In this document: piece by piece, positions 17,087-34,313 of the stretch
Position numbering within the stretch: position 1 is the first letter of the stretch
Layout: each line of letters begins with the position of its first letter
Assembly: GCA_027069135.1 (NCBI GenBank)
Contig: JALXFE010000599.1
Span: 1-35,396 of the forward strand
Length of the DNA: 35,396 nt
Source: Thermoanaerobaculia bacterium
Lineage (GTDB): Bacteria > Acidobacteriota > Thermoanaerobaculia > Multivoradales > JAHZIX01
Reading direction: 5' to 3'
Made by a program: the position numbers and the translations under genes
The notes under the pieces: model-generated
Told to the model about the DNA's origin: nothing
Databases searched by the model: none
What the model saw: only the letters and a program-made list of their open reading frames with translations

Positions 17087-18067
17087 ATGAAGACCAAGAA
17101 GTACCGTCATTACTACCAACACCTAGGTGATCTGAAGAGTCGCCTCAGTGAGAGCCTTCCTCGGCAACAGCTGCGGGCCCTGCACGAGGTTCGGGCCCAT
17201 CGGCACTTTCTGGTCGTCGGTCGACTGCTCTTGACCCTCCTCCTGGCCGGCGCAGCTCTTTGGCAAACCCGCTGGCCCTGGCTGTGGTTCCCTGCAGCGA
17301 TGATCCAAGGGTTCACCCTGTTGGGATTCGTCATCCTGCTCCACGAGCAGATTCACAAGATGATCTTTGCGACCTCGCGACCCCGGCTCGAACGCTTTCT
17401 TGGGCTCTTCTATGCCGCCGTGACCGGGATCTCCGCCACTCAATTCTGCAACTGGCACCTGCAGCATCACGATCAGTTGGGTTCGGACTCCGCGGACCCC
17501 AAACGCGCGCATCTGAGCCCCAAACGCAATCGCCGCTGGTTCAAATTGCTCTACTTCACGCCTGCTCTCTTCTTCCTCTACACCCGTGGAGCCCTGCGTG
17601 AAGCCCGCACCTATCCCTCGCAAACCCAGAAGATCATCCGCCGGGAGCGCCTCGGTAATATCACCCTCCATTTAGCGATCCTTGCCACGATCGGCGTCCT
17701 CGGCGGGCCTTGGGTGCTACTCCGGGTCTACGTCCTCCCGGTCTTCTTCTGCTTCCCCATCGCCTTTAGCGTCAATCGCCTGGGGCAGCACTACAACATC
17801 GATCCGGAAGACCCGGCCAAATGGTCGACCCGGGTCGACGGCAACCCGATCTGGCATTTCCTAATGGTGTGGTCGAACTTCCACCTGGAGCACCACTACT
17901 ACCAGCGGGTGCCCTTCTACAATCTGAAGAAGCTGAATCGGGCCCTTCTGCCTTTCTTCCTGAAGACCGGTCTCCGGAATCGCGGCTACCTGGAGCTGAT
18001 CTGGGGCTGGTTCGTGCAGAACCACCGAGCCCACACCCGCTGGGAGCGGGAAAAAACCGAGGCCTAA
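17087..18067 (+). CDS. Membrane fatty acid desaturase family protein
   Basis: The 326-residue integral membrane protein has the three histidine boxes of the di-iron membrane desaturase/hydroxylase family: HEQIH (86-90), HLQHH (124-128) and HLEHH (266-270). Pairs of membrane helices lie near 41-60 and 67-85 and near 192-228. The family introduces double bonds or hydroxyl groups into acyl chains using oxygen and electrons from ferredoxin or cytochrome b5-type donors. The exact substrate and regiospecificity cannot be read. A GAGG site precedes the ATG. It is preceded by a terminator and convergent with the polyferredoxin gene, so it is probably transcribed alone. Confidence 0.85.
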   Translation: MKTKKYRHYYQHLGDLKSRLSESLPRQQLRALHEVRAHRHFLVVGRLLLTLLLAGAALWQTRWPWLWFPAAMIQGFTLLGFVILLHEQIHKMIFATSRPRLERFLGLFYAAVTGISATQFCNWHLQHHDQLGSDSADPKRAHLSPKRNRRWFKLLYFTPALFFLYTRGALREARTYPSQTQKIIRRERLGNITLHLAILATIGVLGGPWVLLRVYVLPVFFCFPIAFSVNRLGQHYNIDPEDPAKWSTRVDGNPIWHFLMVWSNFHLEHHYYQRVPFYNLKKLNRALLPFFLKTGLRNRGYLELIWGWFVQNHRAHTRWEREKTEA

Positions 18068-18080
18068 ACTCGAGAGAACC

Positions 18081-19007
18081 CTAGCCGCCGGTGGCAAACG
18101 TCGAGTTGGGATGCTGCGACTCGGTGCCGGCGGCTTCCTCTTCGATGCGCTGGGGACCGGAGAAAAATCCGATCAGGAGAGGGACTTCATCGCCCCCTTT
18201 CTTGGAGATCATGAACTCACAGGCGCGAACGCAATCCCCGCACTCCAGGCAATGATTTCGCCCCGGGGCTTCAGCGATGGAAATGCCTGGCCGCGAGCCC
18301 GTAGGCGCCATCAGATCCCGCGGCGCTAGATCGACGGGACAAACGTTGTCGCAAGCATTGCACTCGATACAGGCCGCGTTTTGGTTGCGGAAATGCACCC
18401 CATACCAGCGCGCCGGCGAAACGAAGGAGTAATAAAGGCCGATGGGGCAAGTGCTCATACAGAATCCCCAACGCCACCAGCGACCGTGGGAGTAGGCCGC
18501 CACGACACTGAGAAAAAGGACCGCCCAGGCCAGGATGAGGGCCTTCGAGCCTCCCATCCAAAGGACCCGCAGGTCGACCCACCAGGCCATGACCGATAGC
18601 ACCAGGGCGCCGCTGAAGGCCGCTCCCCGAGCGCTTGCCAGGAGCTTCCCGCGTCGGTCCAGGCCCGGTGTTTCAACCGCTTCCCCGAACCGGCTCAACT
18701 GACCCACCGGGCAGCCCCAGCCACAGAAAAGACGGCCACCGGCTACATTGACCAAGAAGGTCACGACATAGAAAAGGCCGATCCCGACCAAGACTCCCGC
18801 CAGGCCGTGACGGAAAGACGCACCACGAAAAAGAAGGGCGTGACGGCCGCCCCAGAGATCCACCCGAGCCAAACCGCTCAAGGGAACTCCGAAGAGCAGG
18901 CCCAGGGTCAGCGCCATTCCCACCACCCTCCAATGATTGAAGCGGTGTCCCGTGTTGCGCAGAGCACGCAAGATTTTCAGGCGGCGAGAAATGGGTTGAC
19001 GGCTCAT
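18081..19007 (-). CDS. Membrane polyferredoxin (NapH/CcoG-like 4Fe-4S protein)
   Basis: The 308-residue protein has four to five membrane helices and several cysteine clusters. FCGWGCPVGQ (C95, C99) and FCMSTCPIG (C183, C187) are the membrane-proximal Cys pairs typical of NapH/CcoG proteins. Two ferredoxin motifs follow: C213-x2-C216-x2-C219-x3-C223P and C253-x2-C256-x2-C259-x3-C263. It should carry two 4Fe-4S clusters on the cytoplasmic side. It is divergent from the cbb3 oxidase genes, and CcoG-type proteins reduce copper for cbb3 assembly, so a role here as the CcoG equivalent is attractive. The classical CcoG motif was not seen, so it could be another electron-transfer protein. Confidence 0.8.
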   Translation of the reverse strand: MSRQPISRRLKILRALRNTGHRFNHWRVVGMALTLGLLFGVPLSGLARVDLWGGRHALLFRGASFRHGLAGVLVGIGLFYVVTFLVNVAGGRLFCGWGCPVGQLSRFGEAVETPGLDRRGKLLASARGAAFSGALVLSVMAWWVDLRVLWMGGSKALILAWAVLFLSVVAAYSHGRWWRWGFCMSTCPIGLYYSFVSPARWYGVHFRNQNAACIECNACDNVCPVDLAPRDLMAPTGSRPGISIAEAPGRNHCLECGDCVRACEFMISKKGGDEVPLLIGFFSGPQRIEEEAAGTESQHPNSTFATGG

Positions 19008-19209
19008 AGGTCAGAGTCCTTTCCGAAGGGGGAAGGCTAGCAGGGCTCCGCCCCTCTCCACCACCCTTACTCGACAGGCCCCCCCTACCCTATCGGGCGG
19101 TGCGGAACCTCGGAGTAGGTGCTAAAAATCTTGGAAACTCACTTCGTTCCGCTTCTGTGCAAGAATTAGTCTCGCATTGAGAACCAATTCGACGGTTTCC
19201 GGAGATTCG
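19008..19209. promoter_or_regulatory. Divergent control region between the polyferredoxin and cbb3 operon
   Basis: The 202 bases separate divergent genes and must hold both promoters. No FNR box (TTGAT-N4-ATCAA) was found. The stretch from about 19120 to 19175 is the most AT-rich part, and probably holds the oxidase promoter, but no clear -35/-10 pair stands out. Confidence 0.35.
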
Positions 19210-19821
19210 ATGGACGAGCGTACCCGACAGCAGCTCATCGACCAGCACCGTGAGGCGATCCAGAACCTGGAGAGTCCACCGGCTACCGAGTCTCAGGGCG
19301 AGACGAGTTGGCCTCCGGACCGCTTCTACCTTCTGTGGCATATCGTCGTAGGAATGGCCCTGGGTGGCGCCGGTTCCCTGGTGAGTCTGGTCGCCAATAT
19401 CGTCGGCGCACCGCTCTTCGGCCGACATCCCATGGAGCTCATCCGAGTCTTCCTGACGTTTCCCATGGGGGAACGGGCCCTCAACGTCGAGCAGGGCTTT
19501 GTTCTCATGGTGGGCTGCGTACTCTTCCTCGCCACCGGAGCCGTCTTCGGCGTACTGATCCACCTCGTCCTCTCGGTCTACTTTCGCGAGGCCGCCACCG
19601 GGCGCCGCTTCGTGGTCGCCACGGTCATTGGCCTCGCCCTTTGGGTGATCAACTTCTACCTCATTCTCAGCTGGCTCCAACCTTTGCTCCTGGGAGGCAA
19701 TTGGGTGGTGCAGATGATTCCGCCCTGGGTCGGCGCCCTGACCCATTTAGCCTTCGCCTGGACGGTGGCCGCGGGCCAGGTCTTGGGCCGCTTTGAACCC
19801 CAAAAGAGCACCCACGCTTAG
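19210..19821 (+). CDS. Four-helix membrane protein, first gene of the cbb3 operon
   Basis: The 203-residue product has a hydrophilic N-terminus (about 40 residues) and four predicted membrane helices. These are near HIVVGMALGGAGSLVSL, GFVLMVGCVLFLATGAVFG, FVVATVIGLALWVINFYLI and PPWVGALTHLAFAWTV. His residues occur in helix-adjacent positions (LLWHIV, LIHLVL, LTHLAF) but no haem- or metal-binding pattern is certain. Not recognised as a named subunit. Its place at the head of the oxidase operon, 10 bases before the cytochrome gene, suggests a structural or assembly role. The ATG at 19210 has GGAG 6 bases upstream and was preferred to a TTG at 19177. Confidence 0.75.
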   Translation: MDERTRQQLIDQHREAIQNLESPPATESQGETSWPPDRFYLLWHIVVGMALGGAGSLVSLVANIVGAPLFGRHPMELIRVFLTFPMGERALNVEQGFVLMVGCVLFLATGAVFGVLIHLVLSVYFREAATGRRFVVATVIGLALWVINFYLILSWLQPLLLGGNWVVQMIPPWVGALTHLAFAWTVAAGQVLGRFEPQKSTHA

Positions 19822-19831
19822 GAAACCGACC

Positions 19832-20917
19832 ATGACCGAACCCGACAGCCCTGTGACGACTCTCCCACTGCGACGCTCGAAGCCCCGAAAGCCTGTCCTC
19901 GGGATGGTTCTGTCGATTCTGGCGGGCAGCCTCCTCGGCGCTTGCTCCGGCCAAGTCCCACCACCCTCGGCGGCGCCAGCGAGCGAAGAAACACCCAATG
20001 CTTCCATCGAATACGCCAACTGGGAAACGACCGAACCGGGGGCCTACGACGACTACAACCTGCGAGCCAACCTCCTCCAACGGGGGCATAAGGTCTACCT
20101 CAAATACTGCGTGGGCTGTCACGGCGAGTATGGTGACGGGGCCGGGGTCGCCGCGGTACGGTTGATCACCAAGCCCCGGGACTTCACCCAGGGGATCTAC
20201 AAATTCCGCTCGACGGACTCCGGCAGCTTGCCCCTGGAACAGGATCTCTACCGCACCATCACCCGGGGCTTGAGCCGGGTCAGCATGCCCGCCTTTCCCC
20301 TCATGCCGGAAAACGAAAAACTCGCCGTCATCGAGTACATCAAGACCTTCTACCCACGGTGGGAAGAGGAGAAAGACGACCGGCGCATCGTGGCCATCCC
20401 CCAGCCCCCGGAGGATTTGGTCGACGACCATCGGCAGCTTCGAGGCCGCGTCGTCTACCTGCAGATGGGCTGCTCGAGCTGCCACGGATTCGACGGTCGC
20501 GGCGCCGGCGCCACCCGAACGGAATATACGGATTCCTGGGGTAACCCCCAGAAACCCTTCGATTTCACTCGCGGAAGCCTCAAGGGAGGCAACGCGCCGG
20601 AGGATATCTACCGCACCTTCCACACCGGCCTGCGCAGCATCATGCCTTCCTTCGGCGGAGACACCTTGGCGGCGGTCACTGCCGACGGCCTCGCTGCCGT
20701 CACCGCCAATATCGAGGCCATGGAAGCTGCCGAGCTCGAAGGGGTTCTCGAGGACTTTCCTGCCGATGGGAACTCCGTCTTCGGCGAGATGGGCGAGTCC
20801 CAACGGCAGGAGCTTGCCGAACGCAACAGTTGGGACCTGGTCAGCTACATCCTGGCGCTTCGTACCCCAACCACCACGGCAGCGGCAGTCCTCGGCGTGG
20901 AGAAATCCCGTGGCTAG
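19832..20917 (+). CDS. Dihaem cytochrome c lipoprotein
   Basis: The 361-residue protein has a signal sequence with lipobox LLGAC (lipidated Cys38). Two class I cytochrome c domains follow: CVGCH at 93-97 with likely Met ligand in SMPAFP (M152), and CSSCH at 214-218 with likely Met ligand in IMPSFGG (M271). It should be anchored to a membrane facing the periplasm and pass electrons to the oxidase. It precedes ccoN. The locus has no gene resembling CcoP, the usual membrane-bound dihaem subunit, so this protein may take its place. Start chosen at ATG 19832 with AGGAAA upstream; the last 20 residues look unconserved. Confidence 0.88.
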   Translation: MTEPDSPVTTLPLRRSKPRKPVLGMVLSILAGSLLGACSGQVPPPSAAPASEETPNASIEYANWETTEPGAYDDYNLRANLLQRGHKVYLKYCVGCHGEYGDGAGVAAVRLITKPRDFTQGIYKFRSTDSGSLPLEQDLYRTITRGLSRVSMPAFPLMPENEKLAVIEYIKTFYPRWEEEKDDRRIVAIPQPPEDLVDDHRQLRGRVVYLQMGCSSCHGFDGRGAGATRTEYTDSWGNPQKPFDFTRGSLKGGNAPEDIYRTFHTGLRSIMPSFGGDTLAAVTADGLAAVTANIEAMEAAELEGVLEDFPADGNSVFGEMGESQRQELAERNSWDLVSYILALRTPTTTAAAVLGVEKSRG

Positions 20918-20968
20918 AACATCGAGTTTGCCCTCCGAAACGGCTGGAGAAAGAGGAGTCTGACCCTG

Positions 20969-22417
20969 ATGAGTGAACCCCAAAGCTCTGCCCTGAGCAC
21001 AACCGCCGCGGAGGCCCCCTTGGTCCGGCGAGATCTCGTGAAATGGCACGTGATCGCCGGTGTCAGCTGGCTCGCCATCGCCTTATTCGCCGGCCTCTTC
21101 TACTCCTTGCAGCTCCTGCAGAGCTGGCCGTTGCCCAAAATCGCCGTGCTCTCTCCGGGCCGTATCCGGTTGATCCACACCAACCTCATCGCCTTCGGAT
21201 TCCTCACCAACGCCTTCCTGGCGATGCTCTACTGGACCGTGCCACGGCTCACCGGATTGCGGGTGGCCTCCAAGAAGTTGGGTTGGCTGATCTATGCCGC
21301 CTGGAATGGCATCATCCTCGCCACCTGGGTGGGCTTGCATCTGGGCGAGGCTCAGGCGGTGGAATGGGGCGAGACCCCCGTGTGGGTAGATCCCCTGGTG
21401 GTGGTCGGCGCCATCCTGGTGTGGATCCAGTTCTACACTCCCATCGTCAAGACCAAGGAAAAGGCCCTCTACGTCACCCTCTGGTACTTCTCCGCCGGCT
21501 TCGTTTGGCTCGGCTTGACTTACATCATGGGCAACTTCTTCCCCGAATACCTGGTCGCCGGCAACGCCGCAGGTCCCCTGCTGGGCCTCTATATCCACGA
21601 TCTCGTAGGTCTGTGGGTAACACCCATGGGTTGGGGCATGATGTACTTCTTCGTCCCCATCCTCCTGAAAAAGCCCATCTGGTCCCACGCCCTATCCCTG
21701 GTGGGATTCTGGGGATTGGCCTTTTTCTACCCGCTTCAGGGCGTTCATCATTTTCTCGGATCACCGATCCCCATGTTCGCCCAATACAGCGCCGTGGTCA
21801 GCACCATCGCCGTCGAGATCGTCGTGACCACCGTGGTAATCAATTTCTTCATGACCTGGAAGGGTAGTGAAGCGACCCTCAAGACCAGCATTCCCATCCG
21901 CTGGTTCTTCCTCGGTGCGCTCAACTACGCCATCACGTGCTTTCAATGCGCCTTCCAGGTGACCCTCACCTTCCAGCAAGTCATCCATTTCACGGATTGG
22001 GTGGTCGGCCATGCGCACCTGGTGATGTTCGGCGTCTTCAGCTTCTGGATCTTCGGCATGATCGAGCACCTTTGGCCCAAGCTCACCGGTCATAATTGGC
22101 GCAGCGAAAGCCTACGCCGATGGAGCTTCTGGCTCACCGCCCTCGGGTTGTGGGGAATGTTCCTCACCCTCACCGTCAGCGGCCTCATCGAGGGCTTCAT
22201 GTCCATGAATCTGGTACCCCGAGAAACCATCTTGCAGACGATGACGCCTTTCTGGTTGGTACGGACCATCACCGGAATCTCCATCATCAGCGGATTTGCC
22301 TGCCTGGTCGTCAACATGGTGCTGACCGCTCGGGCCGGCCGCATCGCCCACATCGATACGGACTACTCACCTTACGAGGACGTCGAGCAGGGGGAGGTGG
22401 CCATTGGAGCGGTTTAG
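20969..22417 (+). CDS. ccoN: cbb3-type cytochrome c oxidase subunit I CcoN
   Basis: CcoN is the proton-pumping catalytic subunit that reduces oxygen at haem b3-CuB. The 482-residue protein has 12 or more membrane helices. Predicted ligands: H70 and H350 for low-spin haem b; H210, H260 and H261 for CuB; H348 for haem b3. Y254 is placed for the Tyr-His cross-link typical of cbb3 enzymes. Relative to the Pseudomonas stutzeri enzyme, every landmark is offset by three; on that alignment the conserved Glu323 is Gln326 (in CFQCAF). GAGGAG precedes the ATG. ccoO overlaps the last 14 bases. Confidence 0.93.
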   Translation: MSEPQSSALSTTAAEAPLVRRDLVKWHVIAGVSWLAIALFAGLFYSLQLLQSWPLPKIAVLSPGRIRLIHTNLIAFGFLTNAFLAMLYWTVPRLTGLRVASKKLGWLIYAAWNGIILATWVGLHLGEAQAVEWGETPVWVDPLVVVGAILVWIQFYTPIVKTKEKALYVTLWYFSAGFVWLGLTYIMGNFFPEYLVAGNAAGPLLGLYIHDLVGLWVTPMGWGMMYFFVPILLKKPIWSHALSLVGFWGLAFFYPLQGVHHFLGSPIPMFAQYSAVVSTIAVEIVVTTVVINFFMTWKGSEATLKTSIPIRWFFLGALNYAITCFQCAFQVTLTFQQVIHFTDWVVGHAHLVMFGVFSFWIFGMIEHLWPKLTGHNWRSESLRRWSFWLTALGLWGMFLTLTVSGLIEGFMSMNLVPRETILQTMTPFWLVRTITGISIISGFACLVVNMVLTARAGRIAHIDTDYSPYEDVEQGEVAIGAV

Positions 22418-23156
22418 TTTCATTTTCCTCGTCGCCGGAATTCTCTTCTTCGTCCTCGCCTTCGCGGTGAGCGGCTGGATTCCCATGCTGACGGTGCAAC
22501 ACCTGGAGGTACGCACCGTTGAGCAGATGGCCGAGCAGCCCCCGCTGGAATTCGCGGAGCTCAAGGCCGACTACCCGGAGGCTTTTGCCAAAGCCTACGG
22601 CGACGTCTCCGACTCCCAAGCCTTTGCCGACGCCCTACGTACCGGCCACAAGACCTACATCGGGGAAGCCTGCTGGCATTGCCACAGCCAGCAGATCCGC
22701 CCCTGGGGCAATGACGAGGCGCGCTATGGCCGCAAGAGCTTCCCGGAGGAATACCACAACGAGCTCAACATGCCGCCCCTTTGGGGTACCCGCCGGATCG
22801 GCCCGGATCTGATCCGCCGTGGCGGCAAGCAATCGAACGACTGGCACGTCGCCCATTTCTACAACCCACCGGACGTCAACCCCGTGAGCGTCATGCCGTC
22901 CTACCCCTGGTTCTTTGAAGAGGACGGCCTGACCCCAAACAAGAAAGGGCTCTCGATCATCGCCTACGTCCAATGGCTGGGGTCCTGGATCCCGACAGTG
23001 GACGAGACGATCTACGAAGTCCCCTTCATCGAAGAAACCTATCCGCCCGCCGTCCTGAACCGGCCGTCCAGACCGCTGGACTCCGAGGGCACAGAGGGAA
23101 CCGACGAGAACCCCACAGACACACCGACCGAAGACGGCGACGACTTCTGGGAGTAA
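22404..23156 (+). CDS. ccoO: cbb3-type cytochrome c oxidase monohaem subunit CcoO
   Basis: The 250-residue product has one N-terminal membrane helix (about 7-24) and a periplasmic cytochrome c domain. CWHCH (90-94) sits in the CcoO context GEACWHCHSQQIRP, followed by RYGRKSF, WGTRRIGPDL, DWHVAHFYNP and the Met-ligand motif VMPSYPW. It passes electrons to CcoN. Start is TTG at 22404, preceded by GGGGGAGG, and overlaps ccoN by 14 bases. The C-terminal 40 residues are acidic, rich in Thr, Glu and Asp, and probably disordered; that tail is not usual for CcoO. Confidence 0.93.
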   Translation: MERFSFIFLVAGILFFVLAFAVSGWIPMLTVQHLEVRTVEQMAEQPPLEFAELKADYPEAFAKAYGDVSDSQAFADALRTGHKTYIGEACWHCHSQQIRPWGNDEARYGRKSFPEEYHNELNMPPLWGTRRIGPDLIRRGGKQSNDWHVAHFYNPPDVNPVSVMPSYPWFFEEDGLTPNKKGLSIIAYVQWLGSWIPTVDETIYEVPFIEETYPPAVLNRPSRPLDSEGTEGTDENPTDTPTEDGDDFWE

Positions 23157-23159
23157 GCC

Positions 23160-23519
23160 ATGCCTGAAAGTTCTATGCCACCACGGGGACCGCGACCGGT
23201 TCCGCCGATACGCGAAGAACCATCCCTCAAGATGCGGTGGTTCCTGTGGATCTTCAGTGTCGTTCTGGTACTGGTGGCCGGCTCAGCGTTCCTCTTCAAG
23301 CTCATCGAGTTCTACAACACCGCCACCACCTCCGGCCCGAGCGCCCTCGGCTCATTCTTGATCCCCGTCCTCAACTACCTCCTGGTGGCGGGCGGTTTCT
23401 TCTGCCTGTTTCTATGGGCCTACATGACCGGCCAGTTCCGGGATATGGAAGCACCGAAGTACCGCATGCTCGAGATGCAGGCCCAGATCGACCACCAAGA
23501 GAAGGAGGCCTCCTCGTGA
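23160..23519 (+). CDS. CcoS-like cbb3 assembly protein with an extra N-terminal helix
   Basis: The 119-residue protein has two membrane helices (about 26-48 and 66-86). Its second helix and following motif FLWAYMTGQFRDMEAPKYRML match the CcoS pattern 'FFWA...GQFDDLEGP..R(I/M)L'. CcoS is needed to complete cofactor assembly in cbb3 oxidases. Usual CcoS is about 50-70 residues with one helix, so the first helix and its proline-rich leader are an addition. It lies between ccoO and the 48-residue peptide gene, whose GTG overlaps its stop. Assignment rests on the short motif and position, so it is moderately sure. Confidence 0.65.
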   Translation: MPESSMPPRGPRPVPPIREEPSLKMRWFLWIFSVVLVLVAGSAFLFKLIEFYNTATTSGPSALGSFLIPVLNYLLVAGGFFCLFLWAYMTGQFRDMEAPKYRMLEMQAQIDHQEKEASS

Positions 23520-23662
23520 GCGACCCGAAGCAGGGGACTTTCCGCCGGCACAAATACCTGAGCTACCAGGGGTATGAATTTCCCTGGTACGTCACGCTGA
23601 TTTGGATCAGCTTCTTCATCGGAGGCCTGGCCTACTTCGTCTACCACGTGTTGATCCAGTAG
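23516..23662 (+). CDS. 48-residue single-helix membrane peptide in the cbb3 operon
   Basis: A GTG start overlaps the stop of the CcoS-like gene (GTGA). The peptide has a basic N-terminal half (FRRHKYLSYQGYEF) and one membrane helix (YVTLIWISFFIGGLAYFVYH). It resembles small oxidase subunits such as CcoQ or CcoH in size and topology, but has no diagnostic sequence. It ends 16 bases before ccoI. Translation is supported by the overlap, the coding-like composition and its position within a tight operon. Confidence 0.7.
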   Translation: MSDPKQGTFRRHKYLSYQGYEFPWYVTLIWISFFIGGLAYFVYHVLIQ

Positions 23663-23678
23663 CTCCGGAGCGGACCTC

Positions 23679-26096
23679 ATGGCCCGACCCTCGAGGGAGG
23701 CACCCTCCGGCTGCACCCATTGCGGCTTGCCCATGGCTACCCGCCGAGGGACCGAGGATTTCTGCTGTTTCGGCTGCCGCTTCGCCTATCAGATGGCTCT
23801 GCCCGGTCTCAGCAGCCCCGGGCAAGACTCCTCCGAAGATCCCCCGCCCTCGACCCTCTTCCTGCGCCTGGGCCTCGGAATCTTCCTCGCCTTCAACATC
23901 ATGGCGGTCAATTGGGTGTTCTATTCCCAGGAGCTCTTCGGCCGACCCGCCGAAGCCGGAGCCGCCTACAGCTCTCTCACGGAGCTTTTCGCCTACCTGG
24001 CCCTCTTCCTGGCGACCGCGGTTCTGGCCCTTCTCGGAATCCCCCTGCTGAGCACGTTGCTCAAGCCGAGAGCGACGGTCACAAACCCTGTCGGCGAAGC
24101 CAAGCGCCGCCGGCGCCCGGGAAGCAGCCACCTGATTCTCTTGGGAGTCTTTTCCGCCTACGCGCTCAGTGTGTTCAACACGGTCCGGGGGCAGGGGAGC
24201 CTCTACTTCGACACCGCGGCCATGGTGTTGGTGGCGGTAACCCTGGGCAGCTTTGTCGAAGGTCGCGCCAAGCTCCAGGCGGCGCGCTCTACGACCTCGC
24301 TCCACCGAGATCTGCCGCCGACCGTCTTGGTTCGACGAGGAGCTTCCCTCGTCGAGACGAGATTAGAGGACGTCACGACCGGCGATGTGGTCCGGATCCT
24401 GCCGGGAGAGCTCATCGCCGTCGACGGTCCGGTCGTCGAAGGCGTCAGTCGTGTGGACGAGGCCAGCCTGACCGGAGAAGCACGACCGAGAACCGTCGAG
24501 GGCGGCAGCGCCCTACTCGCCGGCACCCACAACCTGGAGGGACAGCTCTGGGTCCGTACCGAACGCGTCGGAACCGCCACGATCCTCGCCCAAACCGAAC
24601 GCTCCCTCCTGGAGGCGAGAGCCCTGCAACCGGCGATCCAGAGACTGGCGGACCGGGTGGCGGGAGTCTTCGTCCCGGCGGTGATTCTCCTCGCTCTCGC
24701 GGTCTTTGCCCAGAAGACAGTCACCGGCGACCCCGGCGAAGGCATCCTCCGGGGCCTCGCCGTGCTGCTCATCAGCTGCCCTTGCGCTTTGGGTCTGGCG
24801 GCTCCTCTCGCCAGCTGGAACGCCCTGCGCCGGGCGGCAGCTCGGGGAATCCTGGTGGATTCCGCCGTGACCCTGGAGCGGGCCGCGACGGTGGACCGCA
24901 TCTACTTCGACAAGACGGGCACACTGACCGAGCCGGAGCTGGATCTTGAAGGCGTGGTCACGGCCCCCGGCGTGGAGCCGGCCCAGGCCTTCCATTGGGC
25001 TGCCCGCCTGGAAGCCGCCAGCCCCCACCCCATCGCCCGAGCCTTCCTCCGCCGGACGGCGCAGGTGGAAGATTCTCTGCCGTCATCGGGGCCGGAACCC
25101 GCCGCCGCGGCGCGGGTCGTCCCGGGCCGGGGAGTCGAGGGGGAGGTGGACAGGCCCGGACCAAGTTCCGAAGAGAACCCCGCCGCCCTCCGTCTGCGCC
25201 TGGGAAGCGAGACCTGGGTCCGGGAAAAGGGCCTCTCCACCGAACTCGATCGAAGAAATCCCCCTCAATCCCCCTTCTGCAAAGGGGGACGCCGCCGACC
25301 GCCCAAGAGCAGCATCGTGGACTCCTATGGTCGTTCACCGGGCTTGACTCCTAAGAGGATATCTACATCGCCTAGCGCTCCGGCGGGTGCTGTCTTCCTC
25401 TTTACGGACGATCGAATCCTGGCTCGTTTCGAGCTGGTGGAGAGCCTTCGCCCGGGAGCCGCCGCCGCGGTGACTCGCCTCCGAGCCCTGGGAATTCGCC
25501 CCGGGATCCTCACCGGAGATTCCCCAAGGGCCGCCCGAGCCGTGGCGGATCAGCTGGGGATCGCCGCCCGGGGTGCTCTGCTGCCAGCCGACAAAGTCGC
25601 CTGTCTGAGTGACCAACGGAAACTCTCTCGAACCTCCAGAGGAGCCCGATTGGCCATGGTCGGTGACGGTCTCAACGACGCCCCGGTACTGGCCGCAGCG
25701 GACCTGGGAATCGCTGTCGGCTCGGCCTCGGATCTGGCTCGCCGCTGCGCCAACGTCCGCCTGGTGGAGGACCGACTCGACCGGCTGCCGATCCTCTTTG
25801 AGATCGCCCGGGATTGCCGACGCCGCATCCGCCGCAACCTGGCCTTTTCCTTCGCCTTCAACTCCGTCGGCATGGGCCTCGCCGCAACCGGCCGCCTCAA
25901 CCCCATCTTTGCCGCCATCGCCATGGTCGTCTCGAGTCTCGTGGTGGTGCGCATCTCCAGCCGCGCCGGCCAAACGACGCCCAACCGGACGGATGCCCCG
26001 ACCGCCCTCTCGGGCTCGCCGGACTCCCTGCCAGCAAACCTGGAGCGCAGCCGGCCGTCCCTATCGGCCGAGGACACCCTGAGGGCTCGCGCATGA
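23679..26096 (+). CDS. ccoI: Copper-transporting P1B-type ATPase CcoI/FixI
   Basis: CcoI exports copper for CuB assembly of cbb3 oxidase. The 805-residue protein has an N-terminal cysteine-rich domain (CTHCGLP then FCCFGC, residues 12-33). Eight membrane helices include the CPC motif (SCPCALG, near 367). It has the TGEA actuator loop (near 265), the phosphorylation motif DKTGT (Asp near 411), the HP motif of the nucleotide domain (SPHPIA) and GDGLNDAP (near 662). No GMxCxxC heavy-metal domain is present between the Cys-rich domain and the first helix. About residues 526-567 are an unusual basic, proline/serine-rich insertion encoded by a palindromic repeat. The stop overlaps the next ATG (ATGA). 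Confidence 0.92.
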   Translation: MARPSREAPSGCTHCGLPMATRRGTEDFCCFGCRFAYQMALPGLSSPGQDSSEDPPPSTLFLRLGLGIFLAFNIMAVNWVFYSQELFGRPAEAGAAYSSLTELFAYLALFLATAVLALLGIPLLSTLLKPRATVTNPVGEAKRRRRPGSSHLILLGVFSAYALSVFNTVRGQGSLYFDTAAMVLVAVTLGSFVEGRAKLQAARSTTSLHRDLPPTVLVRRGASLVETRLEDVTTGDVVRILPGELIAVDGPVVEGVSRVDEASLTGEARPRTVEGGSALLAGTHNLEGQLWVRTERVGTATILAQTERSLLEARALQPAIQRLADRVAGVFVPAVILLALAVFAQKTVTGDPGEGILRGLAVLLISCPCALGLAAPLASWNALRRAAARGILVDSAVTLERAATVDRIYFDKTGTLTEPELDLEGVVTAPGVEPAQAFHWAARLEAASPHPIARAFLRRTAQVEDSLPSSGPEPAAAARVVPGRGVEGEVDRPGPSSEENPAALRLRLGSETWVREKGLSTELDRRNPPQSPFCKGGRRRPPKSSIVDSYGRSPGLTPKRISTSPSAPAGAVFLFTDDRILARFELVESLRPGAAAAVTRLRALGIRPGILTGDSPRAARAVADQLGIAARGALLPADKVACLSDQRKLSRTSRGARLAMVGDGLNDAPVLAAADLGIAVGSASDLARRCANVRLVEDRLDRLPILFEIARDCRRRIRRNLAFSFAFNSVGMGLAATGRLNPIFAAIAMVVSSLVVVRISSRAGQTTPNRTDAPTALSGSPDSLPANLERSRPSLSAEDTLRARA
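25256..25290 (+). repeat. Palindromic repeat inserted in frame within ccoI
   Basis: The DNA reads AAATCCCCCTCAAT, then TCCCCCTT (25269-25276), loop CTGCA, and AAGGGGGA (25282-25289). The arms form a perfect 8-base-pair stem. It encodes NPPQSPFCKGG, a peptide pattern known from dispersed palindromic repeats in many bacterial genomes. The surrounding insertion (to about 25380) does not look like P-type ATPase sequence and the frame is preserved. It falls between the end of the nucleotide-binding domain and the return to the phosphorylation domain. Confidence 0.75.
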
Positions 26097-26809
26097 CCGA
26101 TCTCGGCTCCGGTGGCCTCTTCGCCGCTCTTTTCGTGGCCGGCATGGCCAGCAGCCTCCATTGCGTGGGGATGTGTGGACCGCTGCTCGTGGCCTTCTCA
26201 AAGCTTCTCCAGGGATCCGGGGAACGGAATCCCGGCGGCTGGTGGCTCTACCACGGAGGCCGTATCTGGACCTACGCTCTGCTGGGCTTCCTGGCCGGTT
26301 GGCTGGGGTTTGAAGCTCGGGCCTTGAGCGCGCTTGCCGGCTGGCATCGGCCGCTCGCATTAGCCTTCGGTGCCTCGGTTCTGCTGGCCGGTCTGGCGGC
26401 CCTCGGCTGGCTGCCCGGATGGCGCTTCGCAGCCACGGCCCAGGGCTGTCTAGCCCAGGTCAGCGGCCGAAATCCCTGGCTCGGCCGCCTGGCCCACGAT
26501 CCCCGGGCCCCGGCGCGCTTCCTCCTGGGTGCCGTCATGGGGCTCCTCCCCTGCGCCATGGTCTACGCCGCCCTCCTCCTCGCCGCCGCCCTGCCGACCC
26601 CGCTACACAGCGCCGCCGGCATGGCCGCTTTCGGCCTCGGCACCCTCCCCTCCCTCACCGCCGTCATCCTCGGCACCCGGCTAGCTCCCCCCTGGCTCCG
26701 AGCCCACGGCCCCCGCCTCACCGCCGTCCTCTGGATCAGCATCAGCCTCATCATCCTCTGGCGCGCCCTGGCTCTCGATCCAACTGGGACCGGGCATATG
26801 GGGCATTGA
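26093..26809 (+). CDS. DsbD_2/TauE-SafE-like membrane protein of the cbb3 locus
   Basis: The 238-residue polytopic protein has about six helices and the family's N-terminal motif ASSLHCVGMCGPLL, with a later GLLPCAMVYAAL. Proteins of this type (PF13386-like) often lie beside ccoI in cbb3 loci and are proposed to help copper or cofactor delivery. The paired His-Cys and Cys residues in HCVGMC could bind metal. The ATG at 26093 overlaps the ccoI stop. A longer upstream frame exists but reads into ccoI. It is the last gene of the operon; no clear terminator was seen after it. Confidence 0.82.
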   Translation: MTDLGSGGLFAALFVAGMASSLHCVGMCGPLLVAFSKLLQGSGERNPGGWWLYHGGRIWTYALLGFLAGWLGFEARALSALAGWHRPLALAFGASVLLAGLAALGWLPGWRFAATAQGCLAQVSGRNPWLGRLAHDPRAPARFLLGAVMGLLPCAMVYAALLLAAALPTPLHSAAGMAAFGLGTLPSLTAVILGTRLAPPWLRAHGPRLTAVLWISISLIILWRALALDPTGTGHMGH

Positions 26810-28691: not shown

Positions 28692-30848
28692 ATGACTGAG
28701 GGTACAGATGCAACGACCGACGAGCGCGCCGCGCTGCGGCTAGACCGAAGGGATGGCGTCGCCTGGTTGACCTTCGATGATCCGGAAAAGAAAGTGAACA
28801 CCCTTTCAAGCCGCCTCTTCGGGACGTTCGAGGGCTTTCTGACCCAGCTCGAAAACGATCCGCCCCGGGGACTGGTGCTCATCTCCGGTAAGCCGTCCAA
28901 TTTCATCGCCGGTGCAGATATCGAAGAGCTCCAAGGCTTGGGCGACCCGGCCGATGTGGCCGCCATGATCAACCGCGGCCATGCCCTGGCCAACCGCTTG
29001 AACGCCCTGCCGTTCCCGGTGGTCGCCGCCATCCACGGGTCCTGCTTGGGTGGCGGCCTGGAGCTGGCCCTGGCCTGCCATCGGCGGGTCGCCACAGAAG
29101 ACAAGAAGACGAAACTTGGCCTGCCGGAGGTTCAATTGGGACTCATCCCCGGTCTCGGCGGTACCCAGCGGCTGCCGCGCCTCATCGGGGTGGCGGATGC
29201 CTTGCCCCTGATCCTCACCGGCAAGCAGGTCGACGCCAAGAAAGCCAAGCGCCTCGGGATCGTGGAGGTGACCTGCTCCAGGGCTGACCTCGAGAGCGCT
29301 GCCCTCAAACTCCTCGAGCAAGGCAAGACCGCCCGCAAGCCGAAGAAGGCCTTCGGTCAGAGATTGGCCAACTTTCTGGCTGAAGCACCGCTCCTCAGCG
29401 GCCTGGTCTACTCCAAGGCCCGGGACGGGGTGATGTCCAAGACCGGTGGCCATTACCCGGCCCCCTTGAAAGCCATCGAAGTGGTGCGGGAAGGAATGAA
29501 GCTCTCCCTTCCGGAAGCTCTGAAAATCGAGACCCGAGCCTTCTCCGATCTCGTGGTGACGGATGTTGCCAAGAGCCTCATGGGGGTCTTCTTCATGAAG
29601 ACCGACGCCGACGGTCGCGCCGCCGCCCTGGCCGCTCAATATCCCGGCGAGCTGGAGAAGGTCGGTGTCGTGGGGGCCGGTTTCATGGGCGCCGGAGTGG
29701 CTCAGCTTCTGGCCTACCGGGACACCCAGATTCTACTCAAGGACCGAGACCAAGACGGCCTTGGGCGAGGACTCGAGACCATCCGCGGCCTTTTCGACAC
29801 ATTGGTCGAGCGACGGAAAATGAAGCCCGCGGAGCGGGATCTCGCCGTGAGCCGGGTCGAGGGCACGGTCGAGTATGCCGGCTTCGAGCACACGGATTTC
29901 GTCATCGAAGCGGTCTTCGAGGACGTGGGTCTGAAGCAGAAAATTCTCCAGGACGTCGAGGCTGCCGGTCCGGAAGGATTGATCTTCGCTTCCAACACCT
30001 CGACCATCCCCATCGCCCGCATCGCCGAGAAAAGCCCCAAGCCGGAAAACGTCCTGGGGATGCATTTCTTCAGCCCGGTCCACAAAATGCCCTTGGTGGA
30101 GATCATCCGCCACCCCGGCACCTCGGACGCCGCCGTCGCCGCCACCGCCAAGGTGGGCCTGCGCATGGGCAAGACTCTGATCGTCGTCAACGACGGGCCG
30201 GGCTTCTTCACCACCCGGGTCTTGGCCCCCTTCATGAACGAAGCGGCCTGGATCCTCACCCAGGGAGCTCGGGTCGAGCAAATCGACAAGGCCCTGACCC
30301 GTTGGGGCTTTCCGGTAGGCCCCATCGCCTTGATGGACGAGGTGGGGATCGACATCGGCGCCCACGTCACGAAAGTCCTTCTCGAATACTTCGGCGACCG
30401 CATCACCCCGCCGCCACTCTTCGATCGCCTCATCGAGGACGGCCGCAAGGGCCGCAAAGGGGGCAAGGGCTTCTACACCTATGGCCAGGGCCCAAAGAAG
30501 GTGGATGAAACCGTCTACCCTCTCCTCGACTGGAAGGAAGCGAAAATCGACGACCAGGAGATCGTGGAGCGCTGCTGGATGCAGATGCTCAACGAGGTCG
30601 CCTATTGCATCGAAGAGGGCATCATCACCAACCCCGTCGACATCGATCTCGGTGTGATCTTCGGCTTCGGCTTTCCCCCCTTTCGCGGCGGCATCCTGAG
30701 GCAGGCGGACAAATTGGGGCTCCCTCATATCGTCGAACGGCTGCGGTATTACGCGGCGACCTACGGCGACCGGCTAGCTCCGGCACCGCTCTTGGTGGAG
30801 ATGGCCGAAAAAGGCTCCACCTTTCGTTCGCCGATTTCCCCGAATTGA
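28692..30848 (+). CDS. fadJ: Bifunctional enoyl-CoA hydratase / 3-hydroxyacyl-CoA dehydrogenase (FadJ-like)
   Basis: This 718-residue protein carries out the hydration and NAD-dependent oxidation steps of fatty acid beta-oxidation. The N-terminal crotonase domain has the oxyanion and catalytic motifs FIAGADIEEL, GSCLGGGLELALACH and GLPEVQLGLIPGLGGTQ. The dehydrogenase domain begins with the NAD motif GVVGAGFMGAGVAQ (about 325). It contains FASNTSTIPI, GMHFFSPVHKMPLVEII and NDGPGFFTTRVLAP, followed by two C-terminal helical domains ending GFPPFRGG. Length fits FadJ/FadB. No thiolase gene (fadI/fadA) is adjacent. GAGG lies upstream of the ATG. Its stop codon is part of the -35 box of the proBA leader promoter. 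Confidence 0.95.
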   Translation: MTEGTDATTDERAALRLDRRDGVAWLTFDDPEKKVNTLSSRLFGTFEGFLTQLENDPPRGLVLISGKPSNFIAGADIEELQGLGDPADVAAMINRGHALANRLNALPFPVVAAIHGSCLGGGLELALACHRRVATEDKKTKLGLPEVQLGLIPGLGGTQRLPRLIGVADALPLILTGKQVDAKKAKRLGIVEVTCSRADLESAALKLLEQGKTARKPKKAFGQRLANFLAEAPLLSGLVYSKARDGVMSKTGGHYPAPLKAIEVVREGMKLSLPEALKIETRAFSDLVVTDVAKSLMGVFFMKTDADGRAAALAAQYPGELEKVGVVGAGFMGAGVAQLLAYRDTQILLKDRDQDGLGRGLETIRGLFDTLVERRKMKPAERDLAVSRVEGTVEYAGFEHTDFVIEAVFEDVGLKQKILQDVEAAGPEGLIFASNTSTIPIARIAEKSPKPENVLGMHFFSPVHKMPLVEIIRHPGTSDAAVAATAKVGLRMGKTLIVVNDGPGFFTTRVLAPFMNEAAWILTQGARVEQIDKALTRWGFPVGPIALMDEVGIDIGAHVTKVLLEYFGDRITPPPLFDRLIEDGRKGRKGGKGFYTYGQGPKKVDETVYPLLDWKEAKIDDQEIVERCWMQMLNEVAYCIEEGIITNPVDIDLGVIFGFGFPPFRGGILRQADKLGLPHIVERLRYYAATYGDRLAPAPLLVEMAEKGSTFRSPISPN

Positions 30849-33613: not shown

Positions 33614-33946
33614 CTAGAAAGACACCAAGGGAAGGATGTTCTCAACCAAGGCTGGTAGGTCCCGCTCCAGGGTTCTCCAGATTTCATCTATATCGACACC
33701 GTCGTAGTTGTGAATGACAATGTCTCGTAGTCCAGCCGCTTGGCGCCAAGGGATGTTCGGGTGTCGTTGGCGGAACTCCGGTGAAAGGCGTTTTACTGCC
33801 TCCCCGAGTACCAGTAGTTGGTGAAGGACCGCGGATTGGGTTTTGAGATCCACGAGGAACTCGTCCCGTGAGACCGAGGTTCCAAATTCTATCGCTCGGC
33901 GAGCCGCTTCGACAATATCTAATAAGGTCGCCTCATCCCTGGGCAT
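33614..33946 (-). CDS. hepT: HepT-like toxin (DUF86 family)
   Basis: The 110-residue helical protein is a HEPN-type RNase of the DUF86 family. Its catalytic R-x4-H motif is R74-DIVI-H79 followed by NY81. Other family-like segments are LLDIVEAARRAIEFG and LLVLGEAVKRLSPEF. The partner nucleotidyltransferase gene lies just upstream with a 14-base overlap. In characterised pairs MntA adds AMP to the Tyr next to the HEPN motif (Y81 here) and blocks the toxin. The motif is intact, so the toxin should be active. Confidence 0.87.
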   Translation of the reverse strand: MPRDEATLLDIVEAARRAIEFGTSVSRDEFLVDLKTQSAVLHQLLVLGEAVKRLSPEFRQRHPNIPWRQAAGLRDIVIHNYDGVDIDEIWRTLERDLPALVENILPLVSF

Positions 33947-34313
33947 AGATGGTCCTCGCCTCGTCGAGGATGGCTTCGCGGCGGGGACGATTGCGGCTCG
34001 CTTCGATAGCCCTTCGGTTCACCAGATCTACCTTACGACCGACGAGCCTAGCCAATTCATCTTGCATCGCCACCCGGTCAAAGAGGCTCCACTTAGCTCC
34101 CGGTGAGAACGTCACTAAGAAATCGACATCGCTCCCCGGCCGAAAATCCCCTCGAAGAATCGATCCGAAGAGTGCCAACTCCTCAACCCTCCAACGATCG
34201 CAGAAGCTTGACAAGTCTCGCACCCCAAGACGACTCAGGCGTGCAACGTCTCCGAGCATGATGGACTGTCGAGTCGGCGTGCTGGAAATCTCTTGGTGTT
34301 TCTTCCCTTGCAT
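33933..34313 (-). CDS. mntA: MntA-like nucleotidyltransferase antitoxin
   Basis: The 126-residue protein has a minimal nucleotidyltransferase fold. The GSx10DxD motif is complete: G50-S51 in LALFGSILRGDFRPG, then D62 and D64 in SDVDFLV. A third acidic position is plausible in GRKVDLV. It would AMPylate the HepT toxin encoded directly downstream. Its end overlaps the hepT start by 14 bases. An internal ATG at 34259 (MLGDVARLSRLGV) would trim 18 unconserved residues and is a realistic alternative start. Confidence 0.85.
   Translation of the reverse strand: MQGKKHQEISSTPTRQSIMLGDVARLSRLGVRDLSSFCDRWRVEELALFGSILRGDFRPGSDVDFLVTFSPGAKWSLFDRVAMQDELARLVGRKVDLVNRRAIEASRNRPRREAILDEARTIYAQG

Follow-up and report, generated by a model that had tools for sequence, protein, structure and literature searches.

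The ccoI gene and its setting

The stretch of DNA considered here (the window; 35,396 nucleotides) belongs to the draft genome of a member of the Acidobacteriota, which has 7.17 Mb in 626 contigs. It carries a gene for a P1B-type copper ATPase of the CcoI/FixI kind (Table 1), in which the CPC, DKTGT and GDGLNDAP motifs are all intact. The neighboring genes encode proteins with FixS, FixO, COX1 and cytochrome c domains, together with a DsbD_2-type membrane protein, and positions 18000-26800 form a cbb3 oxidase cluster. Because of the TIGR01525 match and the cbb3-type neighbors, CcoI would be the natural name for the gene product, as judged from family and context.

Of the four matches nearest to CcoI, three come from family f6, where the best E-value is 1e-199; in three relatives from the same family as our genome, it is about 1e-47 to 1e-50. 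This pattern suggests that the cbb3/CcoI genes were either gained in this genome or lost in its same-family relatives. Mis-binning of the contig was considered and rejected, as the window gene at 28692-30845 is closest (69%) to a genome of the same genus, G001. On the minus strand at 33614-34313, two small adjoining open reading frames resemble a HEPN/MNT toxin-antitoxin pair.

Table 1. Features of the ccoI gene and of the repeat that it contains.
Feature	Position	Strand	Basis
ccoI/fixI-type P1B copper ATPase gene	23679..26096	+	ORF, 805 aa; TIGR01525 above cut-off; neighbors
Dispersed palindromic repeat, in frame, residues 526-563	25255..25366	+	consensus match; homologues without it
Hairpin module, GAAATCCCCCTC-stem, encodes NPPQSPFCKGG	25255..25289	+	common to relatives of family f6
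Left arm of perfect stem, TCCCCCTT	25269..25276	+	sequence, fold
Right arm of perfect stem, AAGGGGGA	25282..25289	+	sequence, fold
Body module, encodes RRRPPKSSIVDSYGRSPGLTPKRIS	25290..25366	+	found in own genome only

The repeat in ccoI

A preliminary description of this DNA had placed a palindromic repeat with a perfect stem at 25256-25380, inserted into ccoI with the frame left open and adding about 40 residues. The stem lies where it was said to lie, the reading frame is open throughout, and P1B-ATPase families are matched on either side of the insert. The insertion itself also stands, but its limits are now those in Table 1 (112 nt, encoding a basic stretch of about 37-38 residues), and the stem makes up only a part of it. 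No orthologue is close enough to serve as an empty site; since the nearest ones are only 50-55% identical, the borders rest on similarity between the copies of the repeat.

The element has two modules. One is a hairpin preceded by a leader, GAAATCCCCCTC(A/G)A, and the other is a 77-nt body. At ccoI, the hairpin is flanked by GAAATCCCCCTC and ACGCC, and its perfect 8-bp stem encloses a 5-nt loop, CTGCA; the DNA hairpin has a predicted energy of -8.4 kcal/mol, which was equaled in five of 200 shuffles. The window contains this exact stem a single time and none of 30 Markov resamples contains it, while perfect 8-bp stems of any sequence number 10 in the window versus a mean of 5.3 in the resamples. 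The ccoI copy matches positions 1-112 of a 114-nt consensus, drawn partly from that copy itself, at 86% (E 3.0e-31). Terminal inverted repeats are absent from the ccoI copy, which has a single short internal stem, and folding the full copy (118 nt) gives no gain in stability over shuffled sequences (z -0.04). Only one of its six frames is free of stops, that of the gene, as is expected inside a gene. The element was also considered as a known RNA family, and this was rejected because the lone Rfam hit fell far below the cut-off.

The CcoI loop that carries the insert

None of 19 CcoI-like homologues has the NPPxSPF stretch (a twentieth locus, the fragment L092, was left out of the alignment), and so it is not ordinary conserved protein sequence. 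In the alignment interval bounded by W512 and V570, 18 of the 19 homologues have 11-38 residues, compared to 58 here; the other, an alphaproteobacterial protein with 26% identity, has 59 residues, which align as unrelated. Subtracting 37 residues from our 58 leaves 21, within the normal range. The same loop in the orthologue from genome G033 contains a short direct peptide repeat, SVLSRDSVLSRD, another sign that it tolerates insertions.

Codon usage was scored by log-odds, with a model that was trained on 17 segments of genes from the window and applied to all of the repeat loci described below. In the ccoI frame, the score is positive in both flanks and negative over the insert.

An AlphaFold2 model of CcoI built with 18 sequences (mean pLDDT 77.2, pTM 0.73) has a fold that matches the solved copper ATPases 4bbj and 3rfu. 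It places the insert in a loop of the cytoplasmic domain, in the nucleotide-binding region, between a confidently modeled helix (511-516) and strand (571-575). Residues 526-566 are coil with pLDDT below 50, consistent with a disordered loop. The model, the homologues and the copy number of the repeat in the genome, the three checks suggested in the preliminary description, all turned out in its favor. Low confidence would also be expected of an insert without aligned relatives, and so we consider it likely, from the model, that the insert lies exposed in a disordered surface loop.

Copies in the genome

The repeat is present in many copies. With a 171-bp query (25230-25400), 18 places in the genome match at E<0.01, the query itself among them; with the 114-nt consensus, 24 match at E<0.04 and 30 at E<=1. 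A partner-hairpin pattern added three more loci. Merging the query, consensus and pattern searches by hand gives 25 loci, a count that omits C441, probably a chance match, and the one-mismatch pattern hits C171, C467 and C603. The copies are spread over many contigs, some longer than 80 kb.

At least 90 nt of the element are present at five loci: the window, C50, C423, C447 and C440. C423 and C50 are near full length, being 79% (query 21-128, E 1.9e-19) and 76% (query 27-137, E 1.2e-15) identical to the window sequence. The frame used in ccoI is also open in the three long intergenic copies, C50, C447 and C440. No target-site duplication was seen by eye at C50 or C423, and an ATCG present on both sides of the ccoI copy is unconvincing as one, since the net gain would then be 118 nt, a length that cannot be divided by three.

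Substitutions among 10 copies show no codon periodicity and no third-position excess (0.43/0.45/0.46 in the body). Selection on the encoded peptide was therefore rejected, and the peptide itself is probably unselected, to judge from these sequences.

Copies in frame in other genes

Four of the 25 loci are intragenic. Besides ccoI, they include one gene for a propeller protein with Lactonase and WD40 domains by Pfam (C423) and two polyketide synthase (PKS) linkers (C461 and C153). The C423 copy lies within a 568-aa open frame and its peptide includes RNPPRSPFAEGGRHPPSKS; the codon score upstream is not decisive, and homologues of the propeller do not extend across the site of the insert. The copies in ccoI and C423 share their reading frame and peptide (RNPPQSPFCKGGRRRPPKSSIVDSYGRSPGLTPKR and RNPPRSPFAEGGRHPPSKSRNTDSQGRPPGLTAKR, respectively).

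A pair of elements on contig C158 was considered as a fifth intragenic case because of the 241-aa open frame around it, but the codon score is below zero and the Met start is downstream; the pair is counted as upstream of a gene. Contigs C158 (1-725) and C423 (11368-13069) appear to overlap within one lactonase/propeller gene. If so, the start of this gene would be preceded by a pair of elements, in addition to the in-frame copy.

The two PKS copies are without the body and are read in a different frame from those in ccoI and C423. In both, the hairpins form inverted head-to-head dimers, which the ccoI copy does not, and a single best frame is shared by both flanks. Pfam assigns the C461 host a Beta_elim_lyase domain followed by a KS domain that starts at residue 574, and the C153 host a KR-ACP-KS order with KS from residue 547. 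The linkers before KS encode PPLEKGGQGEFS at C461 and PPLEKGAQGGFS at C153, each followed by EPIAI. They match the consensus at 34-37 of 39 bases on the left and 35 of 38 on the right. Because the KS regions are only 59% identical in DNA versus about 90% for the hairpins, duplication of a module is an unlikely source of the two linkers, and the comparison argues for what look like separate insertion events.

Relatives and other taxa

Among 58 other genomes, four have matches to the element (E<=0.001), and these cover only query positions 1-40: G044 has at least 15, G033 has 11, G029 has three and G031 has one. Three of the four belong to family f6. Three relatives of family f1 have no match, and of the 59 genomes searched, our own included, ours alone gave the longer body. 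The hairpin pattern occurs at 17 sites in G044, seven in G033 and five in G029. In f6, the hairpins are often inverted pairs of about 95-100 nt that end GAAATCCCCC...GGGGGATTTC. Of 29 sites retrieved from f6 genomes, 27 were distinct and scored, and none was judged a clear in-frame insertion.

One site in G044 and one in G033 have a hairpin at the same position before similar genes, which are presumably RND efflux-like. This hairpin is probably one insertion common to two species of one genus.

In a sample of the phylum, five of 396 genomes match, our own included, and the three f6 carriers are outside this sample. Beyond the phylum, the hairpin or the leader is present in four Pseudanabaena/Planktothrix plasmid records (at 87-91%) and in 61 stretches of viral contigs.

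Comparison with known repeat families

In-frame insertion of this kind is already in print. Passages of two reports describe Rickettsia palindromic elements (RPEs) inserted in frame in genes, with enzyme activity kept in the one case tested (PMC2229807, PMC10969869). Passages of the first also describe in-frame fusions of MITEs in enterobacteria and Neisseria (PMC2229807), and part of another report places REPs inside genes of several species, with linkers or loops as their possible sites (PMC3733652). Our searches of the openly licensed literature gave no report of such insertions for the Acidobacteriota or for PKS linkers, and searches with the peptide and DNA strings of the element gave nothing relevant among the matches listed.

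The preliminary description likened the insert to RPEs, and its behavior bears this out. As far as those passages describe RPEs (including RPE-4 and RPE-6), they are dispersed palindromic repeats of about 100-150 bp with an open frame, found in frame in conserved genes. Our element is multi-copy and, with 112 nt at ccoI and five of 25 loci of at least 90 nt, falls in the RPE size range of about 105-146 bp; it lies in frame in ccoI, the lactonase/WD40 gene and two PKS genes. However, RPEs have a long stem with terminal inverted repeats, whereas the ccoI copy has only its 8-bp stem, the host belongs to the Acidobacteriota by its nearest named relatives and not to the Rickettsiales, and only four of the 25 loci are intragenic. 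The likeness is one of behavior; as an analogy, it holds for what the element does, without making the element an RPE by descent.

The hairpin also resembles GTAG/CGTC REPs, which, in the part of that report drawn on here, are 20-40 nt hairpins, often in inverted head-to-head dimers and mostly intergenic (PMC3733652). Such dimers are present at C461, C153 and several f6 loci, but not at ccoI. No GTAG is beside the stem, the flanks being those given above. On the complementary strand, the flank is CGTCCCCCTTT at ccoI and CCTCCCCC in several copies from f6, so that reading it as a CGTC tag is ambiguous, and the AT reported for the first stem positions of CGTC REPs is absent. A difference is the 77-nt body joined to the hairpin here. 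Finally, small non-autonomous MITEs (ERIC, Correia/NEMIS, YPAL) share open frames and gene fusions with our element, according to passages of PMC2229807, but they differ in that no target-site duplication was found here and the ccoI copy is without terminal inverted repeats.

Genes for Y1_Tnp are present in all seven genomes searched, including the three f1 relatives without the element. Of 96 matches, 12 loci were read with flanks of up to 1.5 kb, and none had the hairpin beside Y1_Tnp; the hairpin-flanked RAYT of REP/REPIN systems is thus absent at these 12.

Interpretation

We are highly confident that the ccoI stretch is a dispersed, non-autonomous, REP-like palindromic element inserted into a variable cytoplasmic loop of CcoI. 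That it should instead be an ordinary fast-evolving loop, with a palindromic stem that arose by chance in coding DNA rich in GC, is hardly credible. Homologues do vary in loop length (11-38 residues) and 8-bp perfect stems do arise by chance in the window, but near-full-length copies (76-79%), intergenic ones included, are found elsewhere and are not ccoI paralogues, and codon usage across the insert is non-coding; repeat searches of the genome rule out a chance palindrome. It is very improbable that the insertion damaged ccoI, making it an early pseudogene, or that it is a binning or assembly artefact. A draft in 626 contigs and the missing close CcoI match in three same-family relatives would fit this; against it, the frame and catalytic motifs are intact over 805 aa, the coding score resumes beyond the insert, a gene on the contig is closest to same-genus G001 (69%), and copies occur on many contigs, some longer than 80 kb.

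Another reading is that the element is useful, providing flexible linkers and loops, chiefly between PKS domains, that selection has kept. Two of the four in-frame copies directly precede KS, both as inverted pairs, and these hairpins are conserved in diverged PKS modules. However, there are only two such cases, neutral insertions also survive in linkers and loops, and the repeat has no codon periodicity, so we think this improbable. Most likely, the element is a non-autonomous, REP-like selfish repeat that is tolerated in loops and linkers.

For such a selfish repeat, we propose that the element was copied into ccoI by a trans-acting transposase, possibly of the Y1/HUH type. Since this copy has no stop in the gene's frame, CcoI would have gained about 37 basic, disordered loop residues, and we predict that the protein most likely stayed functional and that the insertion was neutral. 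Copies in other positions or frames would have been removed by selection. The element would then persist where a loop or linker accommodates about 37 extra residues and otherwise between genes.

Among the extensions of the finding, the PKS linkers are of the greatest interest. A bolder view, which we hold to be doubtful, is that a REP-like family outside the Rickettsiales has repeatedly supplied proteins with new segments, having built loops and linkers between domains in four or more unrelated genes of one genome, and that inverted pairs became pre-KS linkers of PKSs and were kept because they work. In conclusion, the ccoI case and its counterparts show that small palindromic repeats can insert into genes of the Acidobacteriota as protein-coding sequence, and NPPxSPFxKGG peptides in annotated proteins, as well as those from other frames, can derive from repeats. 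With a cbb3-oxidase copper pump, a secreted propeller and polyketide synthases as hosts, the question of tolerance or use becomes testable.
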